A model generated the notes under the pieces. The model saw only the letters and a program-made list of their open reading frames with translations. It did no database searches and was not told the origin of the DNA. DNA of 64,000 bases from Litoreibacter meonggei (lineage in GTDB: Bacteria; Pseudomonadota; Alphaproteobacteria; Rhodobacterales; Rhodobacteraceae), in contig NZ_RCCE01000003.1 of assembly GCF_003663885.1 (NCBI RefSeq), positions 483,501 to 547,500 on the forward strand. Direction: 5' to 3'. Shown here in pieces: positions 6,246-18,168 of this stretch. The first letter of the stretch is position 1. Each line of letters opens with the position of its first letter. Made by a program: the position numbers and the translations under genes.

Positions 6246-7331
6246 CTACAATGCGCCTCGTGCAATTTGATCTGCTTCTATACTCTCGAACAGAGCCTTG
6301 AAGTTCCCCTCTCCGAAACCGTCATCGCCTTTGCGCTGTATGAACTCAAAGAAGATCGGACCAATCACGGTTTTTGAGAAAATCTGCAGTAAGATGCGGG
6401 TTTCGCCCCCGTCAACCACGCCTTCGCCGTCGATAAGAATCCCGTGTTTCTGCATCCGGTCCAGCGGCTCTTGATGATCGACCACGCGCGATTGGCTGAG
6501 TTCGTAATAGGCGGCTGGCGGCGCGGGCATGAACTTCAGGCCGTTTTCGGCAATTTTGTCGGTCGCATCATAGATATCGTGAGCGCCAACGGCGACATGT
6601 TGTATGCCCTCGCCATTGTATCGCTTGAGATATTCGACAATCTGACCTTTCTCGCCGCGATCTTCGTTGATCGGAATGCGGATACGTCCACAAGGAGAGG
6701 TCAGTGCGCGGCTATAAAGGCCAGAGTGTTTGCCTTGAATGTCAAAAAAGCGGATTTCTTTGAAGTTGAACAGTGCCTCATAGAACTTGAACCAGACATC
6801 CATGTTGCCCTTGTGCACATTGTGGGTCAGGTGGTCGATATAGTGGAATCCGACGCCCATCGGATGCGTCTTCGCTACCCAATTGAACTCTGCGTTATAG
6901 GGGTTTGCCTCGTAATATTGGTCGATGAAATAGATCAGCGAGCCGCCAATGCCTACGATGGCAGGCACGTCCATGGTTTTGTCGTCGCCGGTGTAAGGCG
7001 TCGCACCGTTGGACACCGCATGATCGAATGCTTGCTGCGCATCGACAACGCGCCAGGCCATGGAAGGGGCGCAAGGGCCGTGCTCTTCGACAAACGCGCG
7101 GGCATGACTTCCGGGCTCGTTGTTCAGCACATAGGTGATATCGCCCTGCTGCCAGAGCTGAATGTCTTTAGTTTTGTGTGTTGCAGTATGGATGTAGCCC
7201 ATTTTCTCAAACAGCTCGCGCAGTTTTTCTGGCTCTGGGTGGGCAAACTCCACAAACTCAAATCCATCTGTCCCAGCGGGATTTTCAGCAGTGATGGTCG
7301 CTTTTGGTGCATCATGTGGAAACGGGCCCAT
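6246..7331 (-). CDS. hppD: 4-hydroxyphenylpyruvate dioxygenase
   Basis: Non-heme Fe(II) enzyme turning 4-hydroxyphenylpyruvate into homogentisate, the committed step of tyrosine breakdown. The 361-residue protein has the expected two vicinal-oxygen-chelate halves; the metal ligands appear as His167 (IDHLTHNV), His245 (GIQHVAVG) and Glu329 (FFEFIQRKG). The start at 7331 is preceded by AAGGA. It is divergent from an Lrp-family gene and lies about 9 kb from hmgA-maiA-fahA, which consume its product. No copy of the GTTNCANNTGNAAC box of the hmgA promoter was seen upstream, so control is probably through the Lrp-type neighbour. Confidence 0.96.
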   Translation of the reverse strand: MGPFPHDAPKATITAENPAGTDGFEFVEFAHPEPEKLRELFEKMGYIHTATHKTKDIQLWQQGDITYVLNNEPGSHARAFVEEHGPCAPSMAWRVVDAQQAFDHAVSNGATPYTGDDKTMDVPAIVGIGGSLIYFIDQYYEANPYNAEFNWVAKTHPMGVGFHYIDHLTHNVHKGNMDVWFKFYEALFNFKEIRFFDIQGKHSGLYSRALTSPCGRIRIPINEDRGEKGQIVEYLKRYNGEGIQHVAVGAHDIYDATDKIAENGLKFMPAPPAAYYELSQSRVVDHQEPLDRMQKHGILIDGEGVVDGGETRILLQIFSKTVIGPIFFEFIQRKGDDGFGEGNFKALFESIEADQIARGAL

Positions 7332-7434
7332 GGGTCAATCCTTGTTGTTGGTGGAATGTGACAGGCATACCGCAAGCCCAAAGCGTTGAGTGCGTATAAT
7401 TCGCGGAATTTTGGCAGTTATTTGCGTTCAGTTT

Positions 7435-7456
7435 GCATGATTCCATAGTTTCATGC
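7435..7456. repeat. short inverted repeat between hppD and lrp-type gene
   Basis: GCATGA and TCATGC separated by 10 bases. It lies between the divergent hppD and Lrp-family genes and covers an alternative upstream ATG (7453) of the regulator, which is one reason to place the regulator's start at 7468. It could be an Lrp-type operator, but the arms are only 6 bases long. Confidence 0.35.
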
Positions 7457-7467
7457 ACGATACGAGC

Positions 7468-7935
7468 ATGACCAGACTCGACTCAATTGATATCCGTCTT
7501 CTCGAACTTCTTCAGCGCGATGCGCAAACCACCGCGCAGACGCTGTCGGAGGTGCTGCATTTGTCGCCCTCGCAGGTAGGGCGCCGTCGGCAGCGGTTGG
7601 AGATGGAAGGCTACATTATCGGCACAGCCTGCAAGGCCAGCGCCAAGCGGCTGGGACTGACGGTGCAGGCCTTTGTTCAAATTCAGACCGTCGCACATGC
7701 GGCAGAAACCCATTCAGCCATCGAACAGCTGATCGGGTCACAACCCGAAATTACGGCCGCCTGGACCCTGACCGGAGATGCGGATTATCTGCTACGGGTT
7801 TATTGCGCCGACCTTTCGGCGCTCAATCACCTGATCCAAAATGTGCTTTTGCCGCATCCATCCATCGGGCGAGTGCAAAGCCAGGTCGTGATGGATCAGT
7901 TGAAAACGGATGCACCTCTGCCGGTGTTTGGCTGA
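7468..7935 (+). CDS. Lrp/AsnC family transcriptional regulator
   Basis: 155 residues from ATG 7468 (MTRLDSIDIRLLELLQRDAQ): an N-terminal winged helix-turn-helix (TLSEVLHLSPSQVGRRRQRLE) and a C-terminal RAM/AsnC ligand-binding domain (AAWTLTGDADYLLRVYCADL). Family members sense amino acids or related metabolites as oligomers. Being divergent from hppD, it most likely controls tyrosine/phenylalanine breakdown, as Lrp-type regulators do next to hppD in many proteobacteria; this is inference. An in-frame ATG at 7453 is possible but sits in the inverted repeat. Its 3' end is 9 bases from that of dctM, with no clear terminator between. Confidence 0.92.
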   Translation: MTRLDSIDIRLLELLQRDAQTTAQTLSEVLHLSPSQVGRRRQRLEMEGYIIGTACKASAKRLGLTVQAFVQIQTVAHAAETHSAIEQLIGSQPEITAAWTLTGDADYLLRVYCADLSALNHLIQNVLLPHPSIGRVQSQVVMDQLKTDAPLPVFG

Positions 7936-7944
7936 TGCCCGCGG

Positions 7945-9261
7945 CTACATCGCCGTTACAAGCCACAGCGACAACCAAGGTACCGCGATCAGCAGAGCGA
8001 GCCGCGCGATATCGGCCAGCCAGAACGGCAGTACACCGCGGAAGATCGTGCCCAATGAGACGTCTTTCAACACTGACTTCAGGACAAATACATTCATGCC
8101 CACGGGCGGAGTGATCAGGCTGATTTCGGTTACCACCACAACGACAATGGCAAACCAGATCAAGGCATACTCCGGGTCTTGCAACAATTCGTTGGTAAAG
8201 GGCAGTTCGTACATCAGCGGATAGAACACAGGCACGGTCAGCAGCACCATCGACAAGCTTTCGAGCACGCAGCCCAGCACCATGTAGATGACCACGATCA
8301 TCAGGATCACCGCCCAGACGGGCATTTCCAAATCCAACACCAGTGATGCCAGCCCATCGGGCAATCCGGCGAAGTTCACGAAGTTTGAAAAGAGCTCTGC
8401 GCCTATGATCACGGCAAAGATCATCGCTGTTGCCCGAACGCTGTCAAACGTGGCGGTCATGAAGTCCCTGAAGCTCATGGTGCGCAAGCCAACAGCGATC
8501 AACACGGCAGCCCCGGCGCCGGTCCCCGCCGCTTCGGTCGGGGTGAAAAAGCCACCATAGATTCCCACCATGATGAAGGTGAAAAGGCCAAGTACACAGA
8601 ACACACCTATCAAGTCAGAGGTATCCATGGGCTCATTCTCGGTGACGTCCGGTGCCAGTTCCGGCTTGAGCCAAACGGTGATCTTGACCGCCATCAGATA
8701 GAGCAAAACCCCCAAAATGCCGGGGATGATGCCTGCGATAAAGAGTTTCGAGATATTGGTTTCGGTCAGCAGCCCGTAGATGATCAGGATTACCGACGGT
8801 GGGATCAGGATGCCCAGCGTGCCGCCCGCCGCGATGGACCCTGTCGCCAGCCGGTCATCATAGCCAAATTTGCGCATGGACGGCATGGCGACCTTTGACA
8901 TGGTTGCGGCCGTTGCCAGAGATGAGCCGCAAACAGCGGAAAACCCGCCGCAGGAAAACACCGATGCCATGGCCAACCCGCCGCGAGTACGCCCGAACAG
9001 CCGGTCTGCCGCCGCAAACAACCCGTGTGCAACGCCGGACGCTGCCAACACATTGCCCATGAAGATGAACAAGGGAATGACCGACAGGCTATAGGACAGC
9101 GCGGAATCGAAAGCGATTTGCCCTGTCATTGCCCACGCCGGCTGCCAGCCACGCAGAAGGGCGAAACCGATGCCCCCGACAGCGGCCATGGCAAAAGCAA
9201 TCGGCACGCGCAGCAGGATCAACCCAAGCAGAACGGCAAAACCTATCAACGATTCCAACAT
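7945..9261 (-). CDS. dctM: TRAP transporter large permease (DctM type)
   Basis: 438-residue, very hydrophobic inner-membrane protein with about a dozen membrane segments, opening MLESLIGFAVLLGLILLRVPIAFA, and with the family stretches GGTLGILIPPSVILIIYG and EISLITPPVGMNVFVLKSV. It is the Na+/H+-coupled translocation subunit of a tripartite ATP-independent periplasmic transporter. Third gene of dctPQM, 18 bases after dctQ. The substrate is not readable from this subunit; promoter evidence points to an aromatic acid. Confidence 0.95.
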   Translation of the reverse strand: MLESLIGFAVLLGLILLRVPIAFAMAAVGGIGFALLRGWQPAWAMTGQIAFDSALSYSLSVIPLFIFMGNVLAASGVAHGLFAAADRLFGRTRGGLAMASVFSCGGFSAVCGSSLATAATMSKVAMPSMRKFGYDDRLATGSIAAGGTLGILIPPSVILIIYGLLTETNISKLFIAGIIPGILGVLLYLMAVKITVWLKPELAPDVTENEPMDTSDLIGVFCVLGLFTFIMVGIYGGFFTPTEAAGTGAGAAVLIAVGLRTMSFRDFMTATFDSVRATAMIFAVIIGAELFSNFVNFAGLPDGLASLVLDLEMPVWAVILMIVVIYMVLGCVLESLSMVLLTVPVFYPLMYELPFTNELLQDPEYALIWFAIVVVVVTEISLITPPVGMNVFVLKSVLKDVSLGTIFRGVLPFWLADIARLALLIAVPWLSLWLVTAM

Positions 9262-9279: not shown

Positions 9280-9798
9280 TTATCGGTTGCGAGGGGGGTG
9301 GATGCCGCGCAGGAACGCGATACAGGCGCTGACCATACACGAGAATGCGGCGAGAAAGCCAAATGGTGCCAACGGGATAGACAGCGCGTTGGTAACGGCA
9401 CCATCTTCAAAGCTCGACGCGGCATGTGACGCCAATCGCCACGCCAGTGTCGCCAAAAGAGCCGCCGAAAAAAGCCCGGCGAAGGCTGAGAGCAGTTTTT
9501 GAAACTTGTCGCTCAGACCCACGTTCAGAAGGTCCACTTCAATATGCTCGCGACGTTCCGTGGTCAGTGGCAGCGCGGTGAAAACCAGCGCTGCCAGCAT
9601 GATTTCAGTGACTTCGAACGCGCCGCTAAGCGGGGCCGAAAAGAAATAGCGGCCAACCACATCCACGCAGGTCACCAGAATGAGGCAGAAGAGCAACAGC
9701 CCCGCCGCGACACCAAGTGAGTTTTGCATGATCAGGCCGATGTCCAGGCTGTTCTGGCCAAGGACATCGTCCGTTTTCTGTGGATCAGGCTGCGCCAT
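9280..9798 (-). CDS. dctQ: TRAP transporter small permease (DctQ type)
   Basis: 172 residues with four predicted membrane helices (first near LGVAAGLLLFCLILVTCVD) and the DctQ pattern VDVVGRYFFSAPLSGAFEVTEIML followed by TTERREHIEVDLL. This subunit bridges the periplasmic binding protein and DctM. Lies 3 bases downstream of dctP and 18 bases upstream of dctM, so one transcript is likely. Confidence 0.94.
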   Translation of the reverse strand: MAQPDPQKTDDVLGQNSLDIGLIMQNSLGVAAGLLLFCLILVTCVDVVGRYFFSAPLSGAFEVTEIMLAALVFTALPLTTERREHIEVDLLNVGLSDKFQKLLSAFAGLFSAALLATLAWRLASHAASSFEDGAVTNALSIPLAPFGFLAAFSCMVSACIAFLRGIHPPRNR

Positions 9799-9801
9799 GG
9801 A

Positions 9802-10839
9802 TCAGAACGACACGCCGGATGCTTTACGCATCGCAGTCAGGGCTGCGACACCGTCAAAGCCGTCTTCTGCGATCGCGTCGGACCAAGTTTTTTCGTGCAC
9901 GGCAGCAGCATCTTTGATCGTGTTCAAAAGCGCATCGGGAGCTTCGGAAACTTCGATGCCAGCTTCCGCGATCTTAGCAATGGCAGCTTCATCTGCAGCG
10001 TTCCAGGCTTCGCCAATCCGTTCGGCAAAGGCCGCGCCGGAAATAGCTTCGATTGCGGCACGGTCATCTTCGGAAATTCCGTTCCACGCTCCCTCGTTCA
10101 TCACGAGGAACCAGGTGGTATTGTAGAGCCCGCCTGGCACCTTGGTGGTGTGTTTTAGGTCATCGGTCAGCTTGAACGCGGTGAGGGCTTCGTAGGTAAA
10201 GGTCACCCCATCAATCACCCCGCGCGAGAGCTTTTCGAAGACTTCACCGGAGGACATGAACAGAGTCTCAGCGCCCAAATCCGACATCAGGTCCGCGATA
10301 TAGCCGCCGGGAACGCGAATTTTCAGACCGTCCAGATCGTCAGATGTTGTGATCTCGCGGACGTTGTTGTGCAGCACGCCGGGGCCGTGGACAAAGAGAC
10401 CAAGCAGTTTGACGCCTTCGTGTTCCGCTTGGGCATCCAATTGGCCGGTATACACTTCCCAGAAGGCTTTCGATCCGCTGACAGCATCATCCCCGATGAA
10501 GGAAAACTGGCCAATGCGCGAACGCTCAAACCGGTCGTCCTTGGTAAAGGAATGCAAACCGTAGGTGATGTCGGCAATTCCATCTGCTGCCATGTCGTAA
10601 TGTGCGGGTGGCGCACCCAACGGCTTGGCCAGAACACGCACCTTCACGCGGCCTTCGGTGACATCTTCAATCTCTTTGGCCCAAGGCTTGATCGCGTTCA
10701 CCACAATCGGGTGGCGTGGCGGTAGCCAGCTGGACAGCGCCAGTGTGGTTTCGGCAAACGCCGCGGTGGATGTCAAAAGGCTGGCACTCAGAAGTGCCCC
10801 TGCCATTAGTTTTCCAAAGGTGGGTGTAAGTTTGGTCAT
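9802..10839 (-). CDS. dctP: TRAP transporter substrate-binding protein (DctP type)
   Basis: 345-residue periplasmic binding protein with a Sec signal peptide ending AFAE near residue 29. The family core includes VREITTSDDLDGLKIRVPGG, with the arginine that normally salt-bridges the substrate carboxylate, and the STLE-equivalent stretch VFEKLSRGVIDGVT. It defines which carboxylate the dctPQM system takes up. Its promoter carries the same 37-base double-box element as that of the homogentisate operon, so the ligand is probably an aromatic carboxylate such as a hydroxyphenylacetate, homogentisate or phenylpyruvate-type acid (inference). Divergent from a MarR gene. Confidence 0.94.
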   Translation of the reverse strand: MTKLTPTFGKLMAGALLSASLLTSTAAFAETTLALSSWLPPRHPIVVNAIKPWAKEIEDVTEGRVKVRVLAKPLGAPPAHYDMAADGIADITYGLHSFTKDDRFERSRIGQFSFIGDDAVSGSKAFWEVYTGQLDAQAEHEGVKLLGLFVHGPGVLHNNVREITTSDDLDGLKIRVPGGYIADLMSDLGAETLFMSSGEVFEKLSRGVIDGVTFTYEALTAFKLTDDLKHTTKVPGGLYNTTWFLVMNEGAWNGISEDDRAAIEAISGAAFAERIGEAWNAADEAAIAKIAEAGIEVSEAPDALLNTIKDAAAVHEKTWSDAIAEDGFDGVAALTAMRKASGVSF

Positions 10840-10974: not shown

Positions 10975-11027
10975 CATAATCGTTTCATTTGCAACGAAGT
11001 CAACTATTTTATTGCACATGCAACGAA
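10975..11027 (-). promoter_or_regulatory. dctP promoter with two MarR-type boxes, shared with hmgA promoter
   Basis: On the minus strand a TTGACT -35 (10998-11003) and ATTATG -10 (10975-10980) are 17 bases apart. Box A, GTTTCATTTGCAAC (10982-10995), fills the spacer; box B, ATTGCACATGCAAC (11011-11024), lies just upstream of the -35, with centres 29 bases apart. Positions 10991-11027 match hmgA positions 18132-18168 at 33 of 37 bases. The same region is 41 bases upstream of the divergent marR start at 11068, so autoregulation is likely. Repression by a MarR protein is inferred. Confidence 0.72.
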
Positions 11028-11067
11028 ATTGCGGTCTTGTTCGACGCGAACCGCAAAGCTTGGACGT

Positions 11068-11508
11068 ATGAAAAGCAACCTGCCCGACTTTGATCTTGAT
11101 CGATATCTGCCTTACCGGTTGACCGTAATCGCGGCTCAACTGAGTGCGCGGTTATCCAAGCAATATAAGACCCAATTTGGCATATCTATTGCCGAATGGC
11201 GTATCCTGCTGAACCTCGGCTATTCAGGCAGCGGATCTGTGAGGGATATCGAAAAGCGGGTCAGTCTGGAGAAATCAAAGGTGAGCCGCGGCGTGTCGCG
11301 GCTTGAGGCCAAGGGATATTTAACGAAATCAGTAGATGACAAGGATCGACGTCTTCTGAAATTGGCGCTTACAGAAACCGGTGTCGCATTGCTTGGTGAA
11401 CTCATCCCTATTGCCACGGCCTATCAGGAACAGCTGGACGAGATATTGGGAGAAAAAACCCAATCCTTGCAATCAGCACTAGATCGTCTGGCTGAAAGCC
11501 CCGACTGA
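11068..11508 (+). CDS. MarR family transcriptional regulator
   Basis: 146 residues from ATG 11068 (MKSNLPDFDLDRYLPYRLTV). Winged helix-turn-helix with SVRDIEKRVSLEKSKVSRGVSRLEAKGYL as the recognition region and DDKDRRLLKLALTETG as the wing, both typical of MarR. The longer frame from 10951 is rejected because it would cover the operator element. MarR dimers usually repress nearby genes until a phenolic or aromatic effector binds. Divergent from dctPQM and tail-to-tail, 10 bases apart, with a second MarR gene. Either protein may read the GTTNCANNTGNAAC boxes. Confidence 0.92.
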   Translation: MKSNLPDFDLDRYLPYRLTVIAAQLSARLSKQYKTQFGISIAEWRILLNLGYSGSGSVRDIEKRVSLEKSKVSRGVSRLEAKGYLTKSVDDKDRRLLKLALTETGVALLGELIPIATAYQEQLDEILGEKTQSLQSALDRLAESPD

Positions 11509-11518
11509 GTTCTTCCTA

Positions 11519-11953
11519 TTACGACTGGTTATTCGCCACAGCACGGGCCAACGCCTCAATACCCTGAACCAGTGCGGCCCGGTCTTCCTCACTCAGCTTT
11601 GCTAGAACGACATTGGCCTGTGCATCTACCTGTGGAAAAACCTCGGCAAAAAGCGCCTGACCGGTTTGGGTGCAGGCATACACACGCAGCCGTTTGTCCA
11701 CTTGTGAAATCTCTCGGGTGATCAGGTTCTTGTCTTCGAGGCGTTTCGAGGCGCGGCTGATCTGTACCTTGTCCAAAGTGGTCCGCTGCGCAAGCTCATG
11801 CGAACTCAGTTGCTGCGCTTCGGCCAGAAGCAGTAGTAACCGCCATTCTTCTCGCGACAAACCATATTTGCGGCCATAGACCTCAACCAGCTTTTGTGAA
11901 AACGCTTCTGCGGCCAAAGCGAGCCGATAGGGAAAATAGGTCTCAAGTTGCAT
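11519..11953 (-). CDS. MarR family transcriptional regulator (candidate homogentisate repressor)
   Basis: 144 residues opening MQLETYFPYRLALAAEAFSQ. The HTH is SSHELAQRTTLDKVQISRASKRLEDKNL, followed by the wing VDKRLRVYACTQTG. It is the last gene of the minus-strand homogentisate operon but is separated from DUF2783 by 64 bases containing its own box GTTACAAGTGAAAC, so it may be transcribed both with the operon and from an autoregulated promoter. It shares the Y-(L/F)-PYRL opening with the convergent MarR gene, suggesting related regulators of one pathway. A ribosome site AAGGAAGG precedes the ATG. Confidence 0.92.
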   Translation of the reverse strand: MQLETYFPYRLALAAEAFSQKLVEVYGRKYGLSREEWRLLLLLAEAQQLSSHELAQRTTLDKVQISRASKRLEDKNLITREISQVDKRLRVYACTQTGQALFAEVFPQVDAQANVVLAKLSEEDRAALVQGIEALARAVANNQS

Positions 11954-11982
11954 GTGCCTTCCTTACGCGATCGGCAAAGCTC

Positions 11983-11996
11983 GTTACAAGTGAAAC
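11983..11996. promoter_or_regulatory. single MarR-type box upstream of the operon's marR gene
   Basis: GTTACAAGTGAAAC fits the consensus (R)TTNCANNTGNAAC derived from the hmgA and dctP promoters. It lies 29 bases before the marR start codon, in the 64-base gap after DUF2783. Only one box is present and it matches less closely than the others; autoregulation is inferred. Confidence 0.5.
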
Positions 11997-12017
11997 CAAT
12001 GCTGCACAGCTTTCACA

Positions 12018-12206
12018 CTACTTGGCTTTGGCGGCAGCAAAGGCCTGTCGCAAAACCTCCCGGTCTCCGATGTGATTGGCAAGGATCAGGATTAATCGCG
12101 CATTCAGCGCATCACTTTGCGCCTTATCAAGGTCCTGATGCGCCCCAAGCAATTCATCATAGAACCCATCGGCGTCCGGAATGTTGGGATTGGTGTTCAA
12201 ATCCAT
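12018..12206 (-). CDS. DUF2783 small protein, possible coupling subunit of the adjacent monooxygenase
   Basis: 62 residues, opening MDLNTNPNIPDADGFYDELL and continuing HQDLDKAQSDALNARLILILANHIGD. This matches the DUF2783 family, small soluble proteins usually found next to FAD-dependent aromatic hydroxylases. AAAGGAG overlaps the monooxygenase stop and the gene starts 3 bases after it, so the two are almost certainly co-translated. In Pseudomonas putida U the 3-hydroxyphenylacetate 6-hydroxylase is, as I recall, a large flavoprotein (MhaA) plus a small coupling protein (MhaB) of about this size; a comparable role is proposed here by context, not shown. Confidence 0.85.
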   Translation of the reverse strand: MDLNTNPNIPDADGFYDELLGAHQDLDKAQSDALNARLILILANHIGDREVLRQAFAAAKAK

Positions 12207-12209
12207 AGC

Positions 12210-13835
12210 TTAGCTCCTTTTCGCAACGGCTGTCCTAAGGGCGGACCGCACATCGCTTGCATTCGCCCGCGTCCAGCGCGCCGCAACATGCTGATCCGGG
12301 CGGATCAGGTAGATGGCGCACTCGGCGGTCCCCAGATACCGTTCTTTCAAAGCGCCGGTTGGGTCATCGGCTGAAGTGTCCAAGCGCAGCTTCTGTAATT
12401 CGATCCCATCTACCTCGGTTAGTTCCGGCAGCTGGGTATTGATGGCAAGTAACGTGAAGTGCCCCGGCAATTGATCCAGCAAAAACCCATCTGAGAGGGG
12501 CGCATCGACGCACGGCGCGCCCACGCGGGTACAGCTCGGGCCATCCAAGCCATCTGCGCCGTTCAGGGACAGGCCATCATACGCGCATGGCACTGAAAGT
12601 CTGCCGGAGTTCACCAAAGGTCGTGCAAAATCATGATGCCGCGCAAGATCCAGCACAGCATTTCGGAAGATCTTGCTGATCTCACTTTTGGGGGTCAGAA
12701 AATCGGTGGCGCGGGTGGAATTCAGAATGTTCTCGTCCGCACCATGAACGCGTTCTTCTGAGTAGGTATCAAGCAGGGTGTCGTGGGCTAGCCCCTTGAT
12801 CACCAGATCCAGCTTCCATGCCAGATTGTCGACGTCCTGAATACCTGAATTCGCCCCGCGCGCACCAAAGGGGGAAACCTGATGCGCGGCGTCTCCGGCA
12901 AAAAGAACACGTCCGTGTCGGAACTCTTTCATGCGGCGACACTGGAAGGTGTAGATCGACGTCCACTCCAGCTCATACTCAGCGTCATCGCCCAGCATCG
13001 CATCGACGCGTTCGCGGATTTTCACCGGATCAAGTTCCGCTTCGCGGTCGATATCCCAGCCCAGCTGAAAATCGATCCGCCAGATGTCGTCGGGCTGTTT
13101 GTGGAGCAAAGCCGACTGGCCGCTGTTTTTGAAGGGTGGTTCAAACCAGAACCACCGCTCGGTCGGGAAATCTGCCGTCATGCGTACATCGGCAATCAGG
13201 AAATTATCCTCAAACACCCGGCCATCAAAGCTTAGCCCCATCATCTCGCGCACAGGCGAGCGTGCGCCGTCGCAGGCGATCAGCCAGTCGGCTTCGACCT
13301 GATAGGGGCCGTCAGGGGTATCCACATCCAGACACACATGATCGTCGTGCCGGGTCAGTCCAGTGACAACATTGCGCCCCCTGATTTCAATCGGCGCACC
13401 ATTGGCCTGAGCGCGACGCACAGCGTCTACCAGGAATTTCTCAAAGTAAGGTTGCTGTAGGTTGATAAAGGCGGGGTTCTTGTGGCCCTCTTCTGGCAAC
13501 AGGTTGAACTCGAATACCTTATCCGGACCGTGAAACACCTTGCCGACATTCCAGATCACACCCTTGTCGACCATCGCCTGACCTGCGCCAAGCCTGTCGG
13601 CAATCTCTAGCGTACGCTTGGCGAAGCAAATCGCACGACTTCCCAGCCCAACGCCATCATGGTCGTCCAGCACCAGAACCGGCGTACCCTTCAGGCCCAA
13701 ATCTAGGGCCGTTGCCATGCCAATCGGCCCACCACCGACAACCACAACGGGATGTCGGTGCGGCGGCAGATCTTGTGACGCGACCTTTGCGTAGGGATAA
13801 AGCTCAAAAGCAAGTTGATATGTTGCGCCAACCAT
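12210..13835 (-). CDS. FAD-dependent aromatic monooxygenase
   Basis: 541 residues from ATG 13835 (MVGATYQLAFELYPYAK), preceded by GGAGG; the longer open frame to 14024 overlaps the next gene and is rejected. The N-terminal dinucleotide fold is VVVGGGPIGMATALDLG (about residues 31-47), and RVLFAGDAAHQVSPFGARG supplies the GD motif contacting FAD and NAD(P)H. This is the group-A flavin hydroxylase architecture (PHBH/MhpA-like) with a C-terminal thioredoxin-like extension. Within the homogentisate operon and paired with DUF2783, it probably hydroxylates a phenolic acid to homogentisate, 3-hydroxyphenylacetate being the leading candidate. MhpA-like activity on 3-hydroxyphenylpropionate is less likely, since no meta-cleavage genes are present. 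Confidence 0.9.
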   Translation of the reverse strand: MVGATYQLAFELYPYAKVASQDLPPHRHPVVVVGGGPIGMATALDLGLKGTPVLVLDDHDGVGLGSRAICFAKRTLEIADRLGAGQAMVDKGVIWNVGKVFHGPDKVFEFNLLPEEGHKNPAFINLQQPYFEKFLVDAVRRAQANGAPIEIRGRNVVTGLTRHDDHVCLDVDTPDGPYQVEADWLIACDGARSPVREMMGLSFDGRVFEDNFLIADVRMTADFPTERWFWFEPPFKNSGQSALLHKQPDDIWRIDFQLGWDIDREAELDPVKIRERVDAMLGDDAEYELEWTSIYTFQCRRMKEFRHGRVLFAGDAAHQVSPFGARGANSGIQDVDNLAWKLDLVIKGLAHDTLLDTYSEERVHGADENILNSTRATDFLTPKSEISKIFRNAVLDLARHHDFARPLVNSGRLSVPCAYDGLSLNGADGLDGPSCTRVGAPCVDAPLSDGFLLDQLPGHFTLLAINTQLPELTEVDGIELQKLRLDTSADDPTGALKERYLGTAECAIYLIRPDQHVAARWTRANASDVRSALRTAVAKRS

Positions 13836-13857
13836 AGCGGCCTCCTGTGCGGTGATG

Positions 13858-14808
13858 TCAGCCCTGCAATTGATCCCACATTTCCAGATCACGCTTGTCG
13901 GTCCAGATGCGGGGGGTGTCGATGCCGCGAGCCTCGTCATAGGCGCGGGCAACGTTGAAGGGCAGGCAATGTTCGTAAATGGCGTAATCCGCGAATTTGG
14001 GATCGCAGGACGCACGAACAGCATCCCAGGCGTCCTTCAAAGAACCGCCTTTGGCTGCAACTTTTGCGGCGGGGCGATAGGTGCTTTGCACAAAATCATG
14101 GGTGCTTTGGATGGCTTTGTTTACCATGTCCTGCCCAATCAGTGCGCCACCCCGACCGGGTGCGATCGCATCCACTTCGTAAGCCTTGATCGCATCAAGC
14201 GTATCGCCCCAGTCCGCAAAATGCCCGTCGCCGCAGTAACACGCCGAGTGGTATTCAACGATGTCGCCGGTGAACATTACGTTCTGATCTGGCACATGGA
14301 TCACCGCGTCACCCGCCGTGTGGGCGCGCCCCAGATGTTTGATATCAACCCGACGATTGCCCAGATAGACCGTCATGCTGTCACTAAATGTTGTGGTGGG
14401 CCAGGTCAGACCGGGGATGCTTTCATGCCCCTCAAAAAGGCGCGGAAAGCGTTGAAACTCGCTGTCCCAGTCTTCCTGTCCGCGTTCCACAACCATGGCG
14501 CGGGCCGTGTCGGACATGATGATCTGATCGGCACCAAAGGCCGAAGCGCCTAGCACGCGCACGGCGTGATAGTGGGTCAGCACCACATGGCTGATCGGCT
14601 TGTCGGTGACCTCGCGCACTTTCTCGACGACCTTGTTCGCCAGTCGTGGCGTGGCCTGAGCCTCGACAATCATCACGCTGTCATCGCCGATGATCACACC
14701 TGAATTGGGATCGCCCTCAGCAGTGAAGGCGTAAAGCCCTTCACCGATCTCATCGAAGGTGATTTTCTTTTCCGTCATGTCGCCCTGCGACGCGAATGCC
14801 TTTGCCAT
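13858..14808 (-). CDS. metallo-beta-lactamase fold hydrolase with altered metal motif
   Basis: 316 residues, cytoplasmic by lack of a signal peptide. The MBL fold is visible: SGVIIGDDSVMIVEAQATP, the first metal motif as THYHAVRVLGASAF (residues 78-91), GRAHTAGDAVIHVPD (His163, Asp167) and MFTGDIVE (Asp182). The usual HxHxDH reads His79-Tyr-His81-Ala-Val-Arg84, so the second-site Asp-His pair is missing. Possible roles are a thioesterase or lactonase clearing a pathway side product. Sits between fahA (11 bases) and the monooxygenase (22 bases) in the homogentisate operon. A second in-frame ATG at residue 11 is an alternative start. Confidence 0.88.
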   Translation of the reverse strand: MAKAFASQGDMTEKKITFDEIGEGLYAFTAEGDPNSGVIIGDDSVMIVEAQATPRLANKVVEKVREVTDKPISHVVLTHYHAVRVLGASAFGADQIIMSDTARAMVVERGQEDWDSEFQRFPRLFEGHESIPGLTWPTTTFSDSMTVYLGNRRVDIKHLGRAHTAGDAVIHVPDQNVMFTGDIVEYHSACYCGDGHFADWGDTLDAIKAYEVDAIAPGRGGALIGQDMVNKAIQSTHDFVQSTYRPAAKVAAKGGSLKDAWDAVRASCDPKFADYAIYEHCLPFNVARAYDEARGIDTPRIWTDKRDLEMWDQLQG

Positions 14809-14819
14809 GTCAGGTCTCC

Positions 14820-16073
14820 TTAGCGTTTGTAGGGGTTTTCGAGGGCGGGCAGGATTTTGCCTGTGCAGTCACCAAATCCAATGGTGAATCCTTCGCCATG
14901 CGCCGCGGCCGTCAGGGTCAACGTATCGCCGTCCTCAATGAAGCTGCGGGTCTCGCCGGTCTCCAGCTCAAGCGGTTGTTTTCCGCCCCAGCTCAACTCC
15001 AGCAACGATCCCCGGTTTTGTTTTTTAGGTCCCGAGATCGTGCCCGATCCCAGCAGATCGCCCACCCGCATCGCGCAGCCTGATGTGGTGTGATGCGCCA
15101 ATTGTTGTGCGGCGGAATAATACATCTCGTTGTAGTTGGTGCGCGCGATGGTGTCGGCCGCTTTGCCCTCAGGGGTCAGCGTGACGGACAGGTCAATGTC
15201 ATAAAGCATCGGGCCCGCGTCTTTCAGATGATCGAGCAGTTCAACCTCGCGCGCGGGCGTATCGCACCGGAAGGGTGCCAGCGCCGCGGCGGTCACGATC
15301 CAAGGGCTAATTGAGGTCGCCGTTGCCTTGGCCTGAAACGGACCAAGGGGTTGATATTCCCACGCCTGAATGTCGCGCGCGGACCAGTCGTTCAGCAGCA
15401 CATATCCGAAGATGTTTTCATCCGCCTCTTGCACCGTAATCGGCCCGTCGCTGGCGGTGCCGACAATAGCGCCCATTTCCAGTTCGATGTCGAACCGGGC
15501 CGAGGGCGCAAAGCGCGGTGCATCGTCATTCGGGCCTTTCAATTGACCCCAAGGCCGCCGAACATCCGTGCCGGAAACCACAACGCTGGAAGCACGGCCA
15601 TTATATCCGATGGGGATATGCAGCCAGTTGGGCGGCAGAGCATTTTCCGCGCCACGAAACATGGTTCCCACATTGGTGGCATGGTGGCGGCCGGCGTAAA
15701 AATCGGTGTACTCGCTGACGGTGATTGGCATGTGCAAGCTGGCGTCTTCTTGGGCCGTCAGAAGCGGCTCTGCCTGTTCGCGGTCGGTGCTTCCCTCGGC
15801 CAAAATTTCCATCAGGCGCTGCCGCAGCTTGGCCCAATCCGCCTTGCCTAGTGCCATGAAGGTATTCCAGGACGACGCTTTGAAAGCCCCTCCGAATGCA
15901 ATCAGCCCTTTGGCTTCAAGCGCCTGAACATCAAGAATGTAATCGCCAATGGCCACGCCGCAGCGTGGATCGCTGTCAGCGGTTGAGAACACGCCATACG
16001 GCAGGTTGTTCAGCGGAAACTGGGTTTCAGCGGTGTTCGCGCTCTCCACCCAGGAACGGAGCAATTTGGTCAT
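14820..16073 (-). CDS. fahA: fumarylacetoacetase
   Basis: 417-residue enzyme hydrolysing 4-fumarylacetoacetate to fumarate and acetoacetate, the last step of homogentisate breakdown. Characteristic stretches are LPYGVFSTADSDPRCGVAIGD near the N terminus, SEYTDFYAGRHHATNVGTMF with the catalytic histidine region, FDIELEMGAIVG with the metal-binding acidic residues, and LLNDWSARDIQAWEYQPLGPF. Length is normal for the family. Its ATG lies within the stop region of maiA (ATGA overlap). Confidence 0.97.
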   Translation of the reverse strand: MTKLLRSWVESANTAETQFPLNNLPYGVFSTADSDPRCGVAIGDYILDVQALEAKGLIAFGGAFKASSWNTFMALGKADWAKLRQRLMEILAEGSTDREQAEPLLTAQEDASLHMPITVSEYTDFYAGRHHATNVGTMFRGAENALPPNWLHIPIGYNGRASSVVVSGTDVRRPWGQLKGPNDDAPRFAPSARFDIELEMGAIVGTASDGPITVQEADENIFGYVLLNDWSARDIQAWEYQPLGPFQAKATATSISPWIVTAAALAPFRCDTPAREVELLDHLKDAGPMLYDIDLSVTLTPEGKAADTIARTNYNEMYYSAAQQLAHHTTSGCAMRVGDLLGSGTISGPKKQNRGSLLELSWGGKQPLELETGETRSFIEDGDTLTLTAAAHGEGFTIGFGDCTGKILPALENPYKR

Positions 16074-16711
16074 GAGATCACTTTCGCATCAGGTTGTTGG
16101 TCGGGATGAGCCGCTGCGATTTCGGGAAGGGCAAGGCATGCCTCCTCTACCCCGCGCAGCTTCGGATAGTGGGTCAGGTCCAGCCCCCAGCGACGGGCAT
16201 TGTAAAGCTGTGCAATGATGCAAAGATCAGCAATGTCCGGAACGGCGCCAAAGACAAATGGCGTGTTTTCCTCAAGCTGCGCCTCTAGCGCTTCGAACCC
16301 CAAACGCATCCAGTGACACATCCAGTCTGTTAGCTGGTCTTGTGTGGCCCCGAAACGCGTCTTCAACTCACCGAGCACGCGCAGATTGTTCACAGGATGG
16401 ATGTCCAACGCCACGGTATGTGCGGCCGCCAGCACCCTTGCGCGCTGCAGCGGATCAAAGGGGATCAGCTGAGGCTCAGGCCATGTGGCGTCGAGATAGT
16501 CGAGGATGGCCAATGATTGCGTCAACGTGGTGCCGTCCTCCAGCACCAATGTAGGCACGCCTGCGCCGGGGTTCAGCGTTAGATAATCCTCTTTGCGCTG
16601 AACTCCGGCCACTAGGTCAACCGGTACGATCTCATAGCTCAGCCTCTTGAGGTTCAGCGCGGCGCGGACTCGGTAGGACGTACTGGATCGCCAGTAGGAA
16701 TAGAGTTTCAT
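16070..16711 (-). CDS. maiA: maleylacetoacetate isomerase (GST zeta class)
   Basis: 213 residues. Glutathione-dependent cis-trans isomerisation of maleylacetoacetate to fumarylacetoacetate. The zeta-class active-site motif [11 protein letters not shown] is at residues 10-20, followed by [10 protein letters not shown] and the [11 protein letters not shown] glutathione-binding segment. Start chosen at ATG 16711 ([10 protein letters not shown]), which overlaps the hmgA stop as ATGA; the longer frame shadows hmgA. It overlaps fahA the same way, so hmgA-maiA-fahA is a tightly coupled unit. Confidence 0.95.
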
Positions 16712-18069
16712 TTCTTGCCCGGAGTGCCGTCGAACTTCTTCTCCAGACTTTCCCAGCAATCAATATAGTCGTCTTGTAAGGGCGCTTGCTTGCCTGCAAA
16801 TTCTGTCAGTTGCTGCGGAAAGCGCGTCTCGATCATGAACGACATCGTGTTGTCCAGCTTCTCGGGACCCAGATCGGCATTTGACGCCCCCTCGAACGCT
16901 TCCATATCAGGGCCGTGCGGCAGCATCATGTTATGCAGGCTGATCCCACCGGGAACAAATCCCTGAGGTTTGGCATCATATTGGCCATAAATATTGCCCA
17001 TCAGCTCGGACATGATGTTCTTGTGATACCAAGGCGGGCGGAAGGTATCCTCCATCACCATCCAGCGCTCGCGGAAAAGCGCAAAGTCGATATTTGCGGT
17101 ACCGGGCTGGCCCGACGGGGCTGTCAGAACGGTGAAGATCGACGGATCAGGGTGGTCAAACAGGATCGCGCCAACAGGGCAATAGGTGCGCAGGTCGTAT
17201 TTTACCGGCGCGTAGTTGCCGTGCCAGGCCACCACATCCAGCGGCGATTGTTTGATCTTGGTTTCATGGAATTGACCGCACCATTTGATAGTGATGGTTG
17301 AGGGAACCTCGCGGTCTTCAAAGGCCGCCACGGGCGTTTTGAAATCACGCGGGTTGGCCATGCAATTGGCCCCGATCGGGCCCCGGCCCGGCAGTTCAAA
17401 CTTCTGCCCGTAATTTTCGCAGACAAAACCGCGGCAGGGGCCTTCCAGCACCTCAACCCGGTACACCAGCCCGCGCGGAATGATGGCGATCTCCTTGGGC
17501 TCAAGATCGATGATCCCCAGCTCGGTACAAAAGCGCAACCGCCCTTCTTGGGGGATAATCAGCAATTCGCTATCAGCCGAGAAAAAATAGCTGTCGACCA
17601 TGCTTTGCGTCACCAGGTAGACGTGGTTTGCCATGCCTACCTGTGTGTTCACATCGCCCGCCGTGGTCATCGTTCGCATACCGGTCAGCCAAGTCTGATC
17701 TTGATCGGAATGTGGCAAGGGATCCCAGCGATATTGACCAAGGCTGGTGACGTCCTCGACCACGTTGGGTGCGGACTTCCAGTGCGGCAGATCGATTTTC
17801 TCGTACCGGTGCGAATGCTTAACCGACGGGCGGATACGGTAACACCATGTGCGTTCATTCTGATGGCTTGGTGCAGTGAAAGCGGTTCCACTCAACTGCT
17901 CACCATAAAGACCGTAATTGCATTTCTGCGGGCTGTTCATGCCCCGCGGCAATGCACCCGGGAGTGCTTCGGTTTCAAAATCGTTGCCAAAACCGGGCAT
18001 GTAACCAGGCGTAACTCCAATATTATCAGGGGCCGTAACCATTTCATTTTGCGCGTTTGATGTATTCAT
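16708..18069 (-). CDS. hmgA: homogentisate 1,2-dioxygenase
   Basis: 453-residue Fe(II) ring-cleavage enzyme turning homogentisate into maleylacetoacetate. The opening [21 protein letters not shown] and the iron-ligand region [18 protein letters not shown], followed by [11 protein letters not shown], are diagnostic. The start at 18069 ([10 protein letters not shown]) is preceded by AAGGAAGG; the longer frame to 18252 runs through the promoter boxes and is rejected. First gene of the operon hmgA-maiA-fahA-MBL-monooxygenase-DUF2783-marR. Expression is probably repressed by a MarR protein through two boxes around its promoter. Confidence 0.97.
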
Positions 18070-18114
18070 TTGGCAACCTTCCTTGGTGGTCTGATTCAAT
18101 TTGGTGTTGCCTTC

Positions 18115-18168
18115 TTTATTTCGTTGCAATTGCAACAATGTCAAGAATTTTATTGCACATGCAACGAA
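18115..18168 (-). promoter_or_regulatory. hmgA operon promoter with two MarR-type boxes
   Basis: On the minus strand TTGACA (18139-18144) is followed after 17-18 bases by an A/T-rich -10 (AAATAA or AATAAA, 18115-18121). Box A, the perfect palindrome GTTGCAATTGCAAC (18123-18136), sits between -35 and -10. Box B, ATTGCACATGCAAC (18152-18165), lies upstream of -35. The centres are 29 bases apart, as in the dctP promoter, and 33 of 37 bases (18132-18168) are the same. A repressor bound to box A would block RNA polymerase. The -10 is weak by consensus. Confidence 0.75.

Follow-up and report, generated by a model that had tools for sequence, protein, structure and literature searches.

In the 64,000-nucleotide stretch of Litoreibacter meonggei DNA analysed here (contig NZ_RCCE01000003.1, positions 483,501 to 547,500; hereafter the window), two closely similar double-box sites are found, one before the tripartite ATP-independent periplasmic (TRAP) transporter genes dctPQM and one before the homogentisate operon headed by hmgA, which serves the breakdown of this tyrosine product. 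Judged from sequence comparison, these double boxes are likely the operators of a MarR-family protein, MarR1, which would repress the hmgA operon, dctPQM and its own gene, and the probability of this reading is put at roughly 0.83. The sequence of the sites, their conservation in relatives, their position in promoters and their tracking of MarR1 are established. The original prediction had placed a regulon under a local MarR protein, which conservation in relatives supports, and the candidate can now be narrowed to MarR1 rather than its paralogue MarR2.

Sequence and layout of the two operators

Each operator consists of two near-palindromes of the form TTGCA-N2-TGCAA, to which no strand is assigned. 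In the dctP operator, box A (GTTTCATTTGCAAC) lies at 10982-10995 and box B (ATTGCACATGCAAC) at 11011-11024, and in the hmgA operator box A (GTTGCAATTGCAAC) lies at 18123-18136 and box B (again ATTGCACATGCAAC) at 18152-18165. The identity of 33 out of 37 bases previously claimed for 10991-11027 and 18132-18168 is reproduced on recomputation, and the likeness extends to 41 of 47 bases (10981-11027 and 18122-18168) with a 22-base identical run that exceeds one box in length. The runner-up ungapped match of either 47-mer in the whole window is 25/47 on the same strand and 32/47 on the opposite one, on which each palindromic box finds its own match. The 29-base spacing of the boxes likewise holds, start to start, at both dctP and hmgA, as does the TTGAC(T/A) hexamer between them, which is found on the minus strand, that of the downstream genes, as the −35-like TTGACT (10998-11003) in the dctP promoter and TTGACA (18139-18144) in the hmgA promoter. 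In addition to what had been described before, the dctP operator doubles as the upstream region of the divergent marR1 (ATG at 11068), with box B nearest to that gene.

The sites exceed what chance would give. With one mismatch allowed and both strands counted, TTGCANNTGCAAC has eight matches in the window versus a mean of 1.72 and a maximum of 5 in 100 shuffles, and the exact TTGCANNTGCAA occurs at nine places in the 3.95-Mb genome, three of which are these boxes and the remaining six all lie within long open reading frames; with just these nine exact dyads, a global-regulator site was rejected. The pattern TTNCANNTGNAACNANGTCAA, which joins the dyad of box A to the GTCAA of the −35 element, has two perfect matches in the genome, both of them in these operators, none at one mismatch and nine at two mismatches, and the reversed control gives five matches at up to two mismatches. 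In 22 relatives, a 21-base pattern within one mismatch gives 24 matches in 17 genomes, and its reversal two. Matches at L195, L198, L205, L206, L208 and L211, where the query set has neither an hmg nor a MarR gene nearby, were considered as extra regulon members and set aside, as they look like noise.

Conservation of the site and its association with MarR1

A search for relatives of MarR1 covered 295 family genomes, from which 40 neighbourhoods of 8.9 to 16 kb were taken, and 80 further named loci, the best 80 of 455 relatives, came from a separate collection, with some genomes common to both sets. The prevailing arrangement in relatives is the hmgA operon, the site and a divergent marR1. When 9,216 spaced 5-mer dyads were ranked in the 250 bp upstream of marR1 in the 80 loci, TTGCA-N2-TGCAA came first, being exact in 60 loci and present within one mismatch in 75, and the top dyad that does not overlap the box reached 11; the 228 control segments drawn from the same loci contain no exact dyad and two with one mismatch. 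Of 42 pairs of sites, each within one mismatch, 25 are spaced at 29 bp and 8 at 30 bp, thus 33 of 42 have the spacing seen in the window or one base more. Exact dyads are also present in loci titled Rhizobium (L141) and Cohaesibacter (L144), so the limits of the dyad are not those of one family. In a Thioclava locus (L162:8001-8990), two consecutive MarR1-type genes stand beside hmgA, with two one-mismatch boxes before the second.

Conservation upstream of orthologous hmgA and dctP genes had been named as the test of the original prediction, and it holds for hmgA and only in part for dctP, as discussed below. The 80 loci include 61 regions upstream of hmgA; the dyad is exact in 47 of these, has one mismatch in 13 and three in the remaining one, which makes 60 of 61 within one mismatch, and in the 40-neighbourhood set the hmgA site is kept where marR1 is kilobases distant (L071, L073). 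A TTGA directly precedes a box, with two mismatches allowed in the latter, in 57 of the 61 regions, and box A of the dctP/marR1 operator occupies the same place relative to TTGAC. The consensus of these 57 regions, TTGACnTCgTTGCAnaTGCAACGAATA, retains the TTGAC of both window promoters and is accompanied by a weaker second box upstream; according to this consensus the box fills the 17-bp spacer between the −35 and −10 elements. From what is known of MarR proteins, a box in this position would suggest repression by occlusion.

The association of the site with MarR1 is evident when genomes with different sets of regulators are compared. MarR2 was sought at E 1e-15 in 20 genomes, of which 18 have MarR1 and two, G171 and G210, served as controls without a MarR1 orthologue. 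Orthologues of MarR2 (57-67% identity) were found in three of the 18 (G257, G253 and G006), and in G222 the search gave a 37% match of unclear standing besides the MarR1 gene; in the remaining 14 it returned at this threshold the MarR1 gene itself or nothing, and there was no match in either control. All 14 genomes with MarR1 and without a MarR2 orthologue have the exact dyad before hmgA. In the same-genus genome G171, where hmgA is 81% identical and the best MarR1 match has an E of 1.7e-8, no site within two mismatches is found upstream of hmgA, the closest dyad being three mismatches off. Next, in 16 hmgA loci whose neighbouring MarR belongs to another clade, with 34-40% identity to MarR1 or MarR2 (L092, L241-L244, L246, L248, L249, L252-L256 and L258-L260), there is no exact dyad and two have it with one mismatch, and ten contain a TAGTT-N8-AACTA palindrome. 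The site is thus kept in 14 genomes without MarR2 and replaced beside another MarR clade, which points to MarR1 rather than MarR2 as its regulator.

The MarR proteins of those 16 loci form one supported group on a midpoint-rooted tree of 131 rows with few columns and many unresolved forks, in which the window MarR1 falls into a supported group of 19 rows, two of them identical, all 19 with an exact upstream dyad. The TAGTT patterns were picked after the hmgA-locus results had been viewed, so the clustering of that label on the tree is descriptive, and the two labels of the window were assigned by hand. Regulator clade and operator seem, on this comparison, to have been exchanged together beside hmgA. 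A phylum-wide search gave an hmgA match in 131 of 397 genomes, with 30 loci delivered and the fetched ones examined. In 16 further hmgA loci out of 114 genomes that sample the class (one of them of the same family), the exact dyad is absent and a one-mismatch dyad is found only in L097; four of these loci have a MarR relative (34-45% identity) next to hmgA. The distribution of the site therefore follows MarR1 and not hmgA as such.

Evaluation of the model and the proposed switch

Several observations weigh against regulation of all three transcription units by MarR1. The −10 elements of both window promoters match TATAAT poorly, and the earlier placement of box A in the −35/−10 spacer, borne out by the family consensus and weak in the window alone, consequently leans more on the former. 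Five of the 80 marR1 upstream regions lack a site within one mismatch, the dyad being two mismatches off in L135 and four in L155, L161, L167 and L173; the hmgA of L155 and L161, which there does not face marR1, has an exact site instead. Among MarR1 relatives of 44-45% identity from other families of the class (L094, L095 and L097) there is no exact dyad, and a one-mismatch dyad is present in one of the three. An exact dyad is also present upstream of 7 of 20 marR2 relatives, which leaves room for cross-binding by MarR2. Finally, the 80 loci are biased to close relatives, were found with an alignment of MarR1 orthologues and are related by descent.

The dyads before marR2 bear directly on the alternative that the switch is set by MarR2, or by both paralogues jointly, through binding to the boxes. 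The two proteins are 37% identical, in six of the marR2 upstream regions another box lies at 57-58 bp from the first, and a degenerate box starts at −42 before the window marR2; however, the operator is kept in the 14 genomes that have no MarR2 orthologue, the exact dyad is less frequent before marR2 than the 60 of 80 before marR1, and the boxes there are not spaced at 29 bp, which makes a part for MarR2 in the switch improbable. Some MarR proteins activate, and MarR1 might bind the boxes as an activator instead of a repressor, but nothing specific to this locus favours such a role, and a dimer on the box that fills the promoter spacer in 57 of 61 hmgA upstream regions is expected to block the polymerase, hence activation appears still less probable. 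The likeness of the two window sites might also reflect a recent duplication without regulatory meaning, as the shared identical run is longer than a box. Yet the motif is kept in relatives, and a comparison of 32 distinct double-box operators shows each window operator to match that of another genome at 42 of 50 positions, exactly as the two match each other, so a recent duplication is not evident and this explanation is very improbable.

Returning to repression by MarR1, we infer binding, repression, cooperation of two dimers, autoregulation, an inducer and a transported substrate. A MarR1 dimer on box A would occupy the −35/−10 spacer of the hmgA and dctP promoters, and another dimer on box B, which lies 29 bp upstream on the other side of the −35 hexamer, would reinforce this block and, at the end towards marR1, govern that gene as well. 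In the absence of an inducer, hmgA, maiA, fah and the genes of the metallo-beta-lactamase-fold (MBL) protein and FAD hydroxylase, together with dctPQM and marR1, would be kept down. A compound of the pathway, possibly homogentisate, a precursor or a ring-cleavage product, would then bind MarR1 and release it, by which uptake and breakdown would be switched on together.

Orthologues of dctP (E 1e-100 or better) are found in 15 of the 295 family genomes, the window counted, which marks a rare type of TRAP transporter. In all 15, genes of the hmg cluster lie in the same stretch, and in 14 at least two of hmgA, maiA, fah, the MBL gene and the FAD hydroxylase gene are present; in G280, the MBL gene (83%) directly precedes dctP and a hydroxylase of a second kind (53%) is found, with hmgA elsewhere. 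The dctPQM genes follow the hmg-cluster genes on the same strand in 11 of 15 and precede hmgA in G010, and in the window, G257 and G163 they are divergent from a MarR1-type gene. Within 400 bp before dctP, a site with at most one mismatch is found in 2 of the 15 orthologues, those of the window and G257, and G163 has a two-mismatch site only. The link between this transporter and the homogentisate genes is thus the rule where the transporter exists, and an operator of its own at dctP is uncommon and accompanies a changed order of the genes. The clustering in 15 of 15 strengthens the notion that dctPQM may take up an aromatic acid. According to excerpts of PMC3053370, MhaAB feeds 3-hydroxyphenylacetate into the pathway in Pseudomonas and Burkholderia. 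The FAD hydroxylase may play an MhaAB-like part here, with the TRAP transporter importing such a compound. A broader joint reading, offered tentatively and at somewhat less than even odds, is that dctPQM is dedicated to homogentisate or a hydroxyphenylacetate-type precursor that the FAD hydroxylase would convert to homogentisate, that the −35 element between two MarR1 dimers 29 bp apart constitutes a distinct two-dimer switch, and that other genomes of the family exchanged the regulator clade and the palindrome together at hmgA.

Genes of the locus and comparison with known systems

The gene of the proposed repressor, marR1 (11068-11508, plus strand), is divergent from dctP, and its product matches Pfam MarR_2 PF12802 with 50.4 bits (cut-off 27) and PF01047 with 41.8 bits (cut-off 24.6), in all six Pfam families of MarR-type and other helix-turn-helix proteins, with IclR absent among them. 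The closest solved structure by sequence is 2fa5 (E 1.5e-20). The paralogue marR2 lies at 11519-11953 on the minus strand, its identity with MarR1 extending over 107 residues. Neither protein scores above the curated cut-off for the named NCBIfam MarR equivalogs (BilQ, HpaR and others), the top score being 40.8 bits for BilQ (cut-off 125) in MarR1 and 52.6 bits for HpaR (cut-off 121.2) in MarR2. In the window, the pattern TT-N-CA-N2-TG-N-AA occurs in the four boxes and in one further, degenerate site before marR2, TTTCACTTGTAA on the marR2 strand at 11984-11995, which begins 42 bp before the start codon, where some relatives have clearer boxes. In L110:9558-9627, L114:9558-9627, L113, L115, L124 and L126 (the last with no MarR2 match listed), the two TTGCA-N2-TGCAA-type boxes upstream of marR2 relatives are spaced at about twice the distance seen at marR1, and, L115 excepted, a second FAD hydroxylase with about 55% identity to that of the window lies across from them.

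The remaining genes of the locus are all on the minus strand. The substrate-binding protein dctP (9802-10839) matches PF03480 with 113.2 bits (cut-off 23.4) and the large permease dctM (7945-9261) matches TIGR00786 with 279 bits (cut-off 268.45), by which the DctP-type binding protein and the DctM-type permease that are required of a TRAP transporter are both present; the small subunit dctQ (9280-9798) is named from its position and the conserved order in relatives. The homogentisate operon comprises hmgA for homogentisate 1,2-dioxygenase (16708-18069; TIGR01015, 640.4 bits, cut-off 510.75), maiA for maleylacetoacetate isomerase (16070-16714; TIGR01262, 255.9 bits, cut-off 171.05), fah for fumarylacetoacetase (14820-16073; TIGR01266, 520.5 bits, cut-off 375.3), the MBL protein gene (13858-14808; PF00753, 40.1 bits, cut-off 22.7), which recurs in the operon of relatives, and the gene of a PRK08132-type FAD-dependent hydroxylase (NF006002, 765.5 bits, from residue 70). 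The open frame of the latter spans 12210-14024, and from the onset of the family match the true start is probably near 13820. Further in the window, hpd and a divergent Lrp/AsnC-type gene (6246-7935) have no MarR1 box between them, and hpd was rejected as a third regulon member as no TT-N-CA-N2-TG-N-AA site is found between the two genes; the step by which tyrosine enters seems to be under a control separate from that of the homogentisate operon.

Among described systems, as far as the excerpts of the cited papers go, HmgS has been predicted to regulate hmgAB in Alteromonadales and Pseudoalteromonadales (PMC5343134, 2016), and it resembles MarR1 in belonging to the MarR family and in the prediction of homogentisate-gene control by comparative genomics. 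In contrast to MarR1, HmgS is from Gammaproteobacteria, with three genomes and six sites in the table of that source, and the account given there contains neither an alphaproteobacterial regulon nor a TRAP target. As a MarR protein whose predicted sites lie before hmg genes, MarR1 answers the description of HmgS, which is a functional likeness by description and not proof of membership. The HmgR of Pseudomonas putida is, as proposed for MarR1, a divergent local repressor of a homogentisate operon, hmgABC, with homogentisate as the anti-repressor (PMC5343134, PMC3053370); it is, however, an IclR-family protein, a family that MarR1 does not match. The CouR/TarPQM system of Rhodopseudomonas palustris likewise has a MarR regulator together with a TRAP transporter in a single gene cluster for an aromatic acid, but belongs to the p-coumarate pathway, with CouR responding to p-coumaroyl-CoA (PMC3610893). 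Among the matches listed in a search of the open literature, with subscription journals and regulon databases outside its scope, the text available describes no MarR operator at hmgA and no TRAP transporter in the homogentisate pathway for Rhodobacteraceae, and the accessible parts of Roseobacter-group genome papers mention homogentisate genes and not MarR. The circuit looks ordinary in kind and, as far as this search reaches, is apparently undescribed in Rhodobacteraceae.

With MarR1 and its double boxes, a regulator and an operator can be proposed for the homogentisate pathway of Rhodobacteraceae, and an uncharacterised type of TRAP transporter is tied to aromatic catabolism. The apparent joint exchange of MarR clade and operator at the same gene would, in addition, serve as a natural experiment in the choice of DNA sites by MarR proteins.

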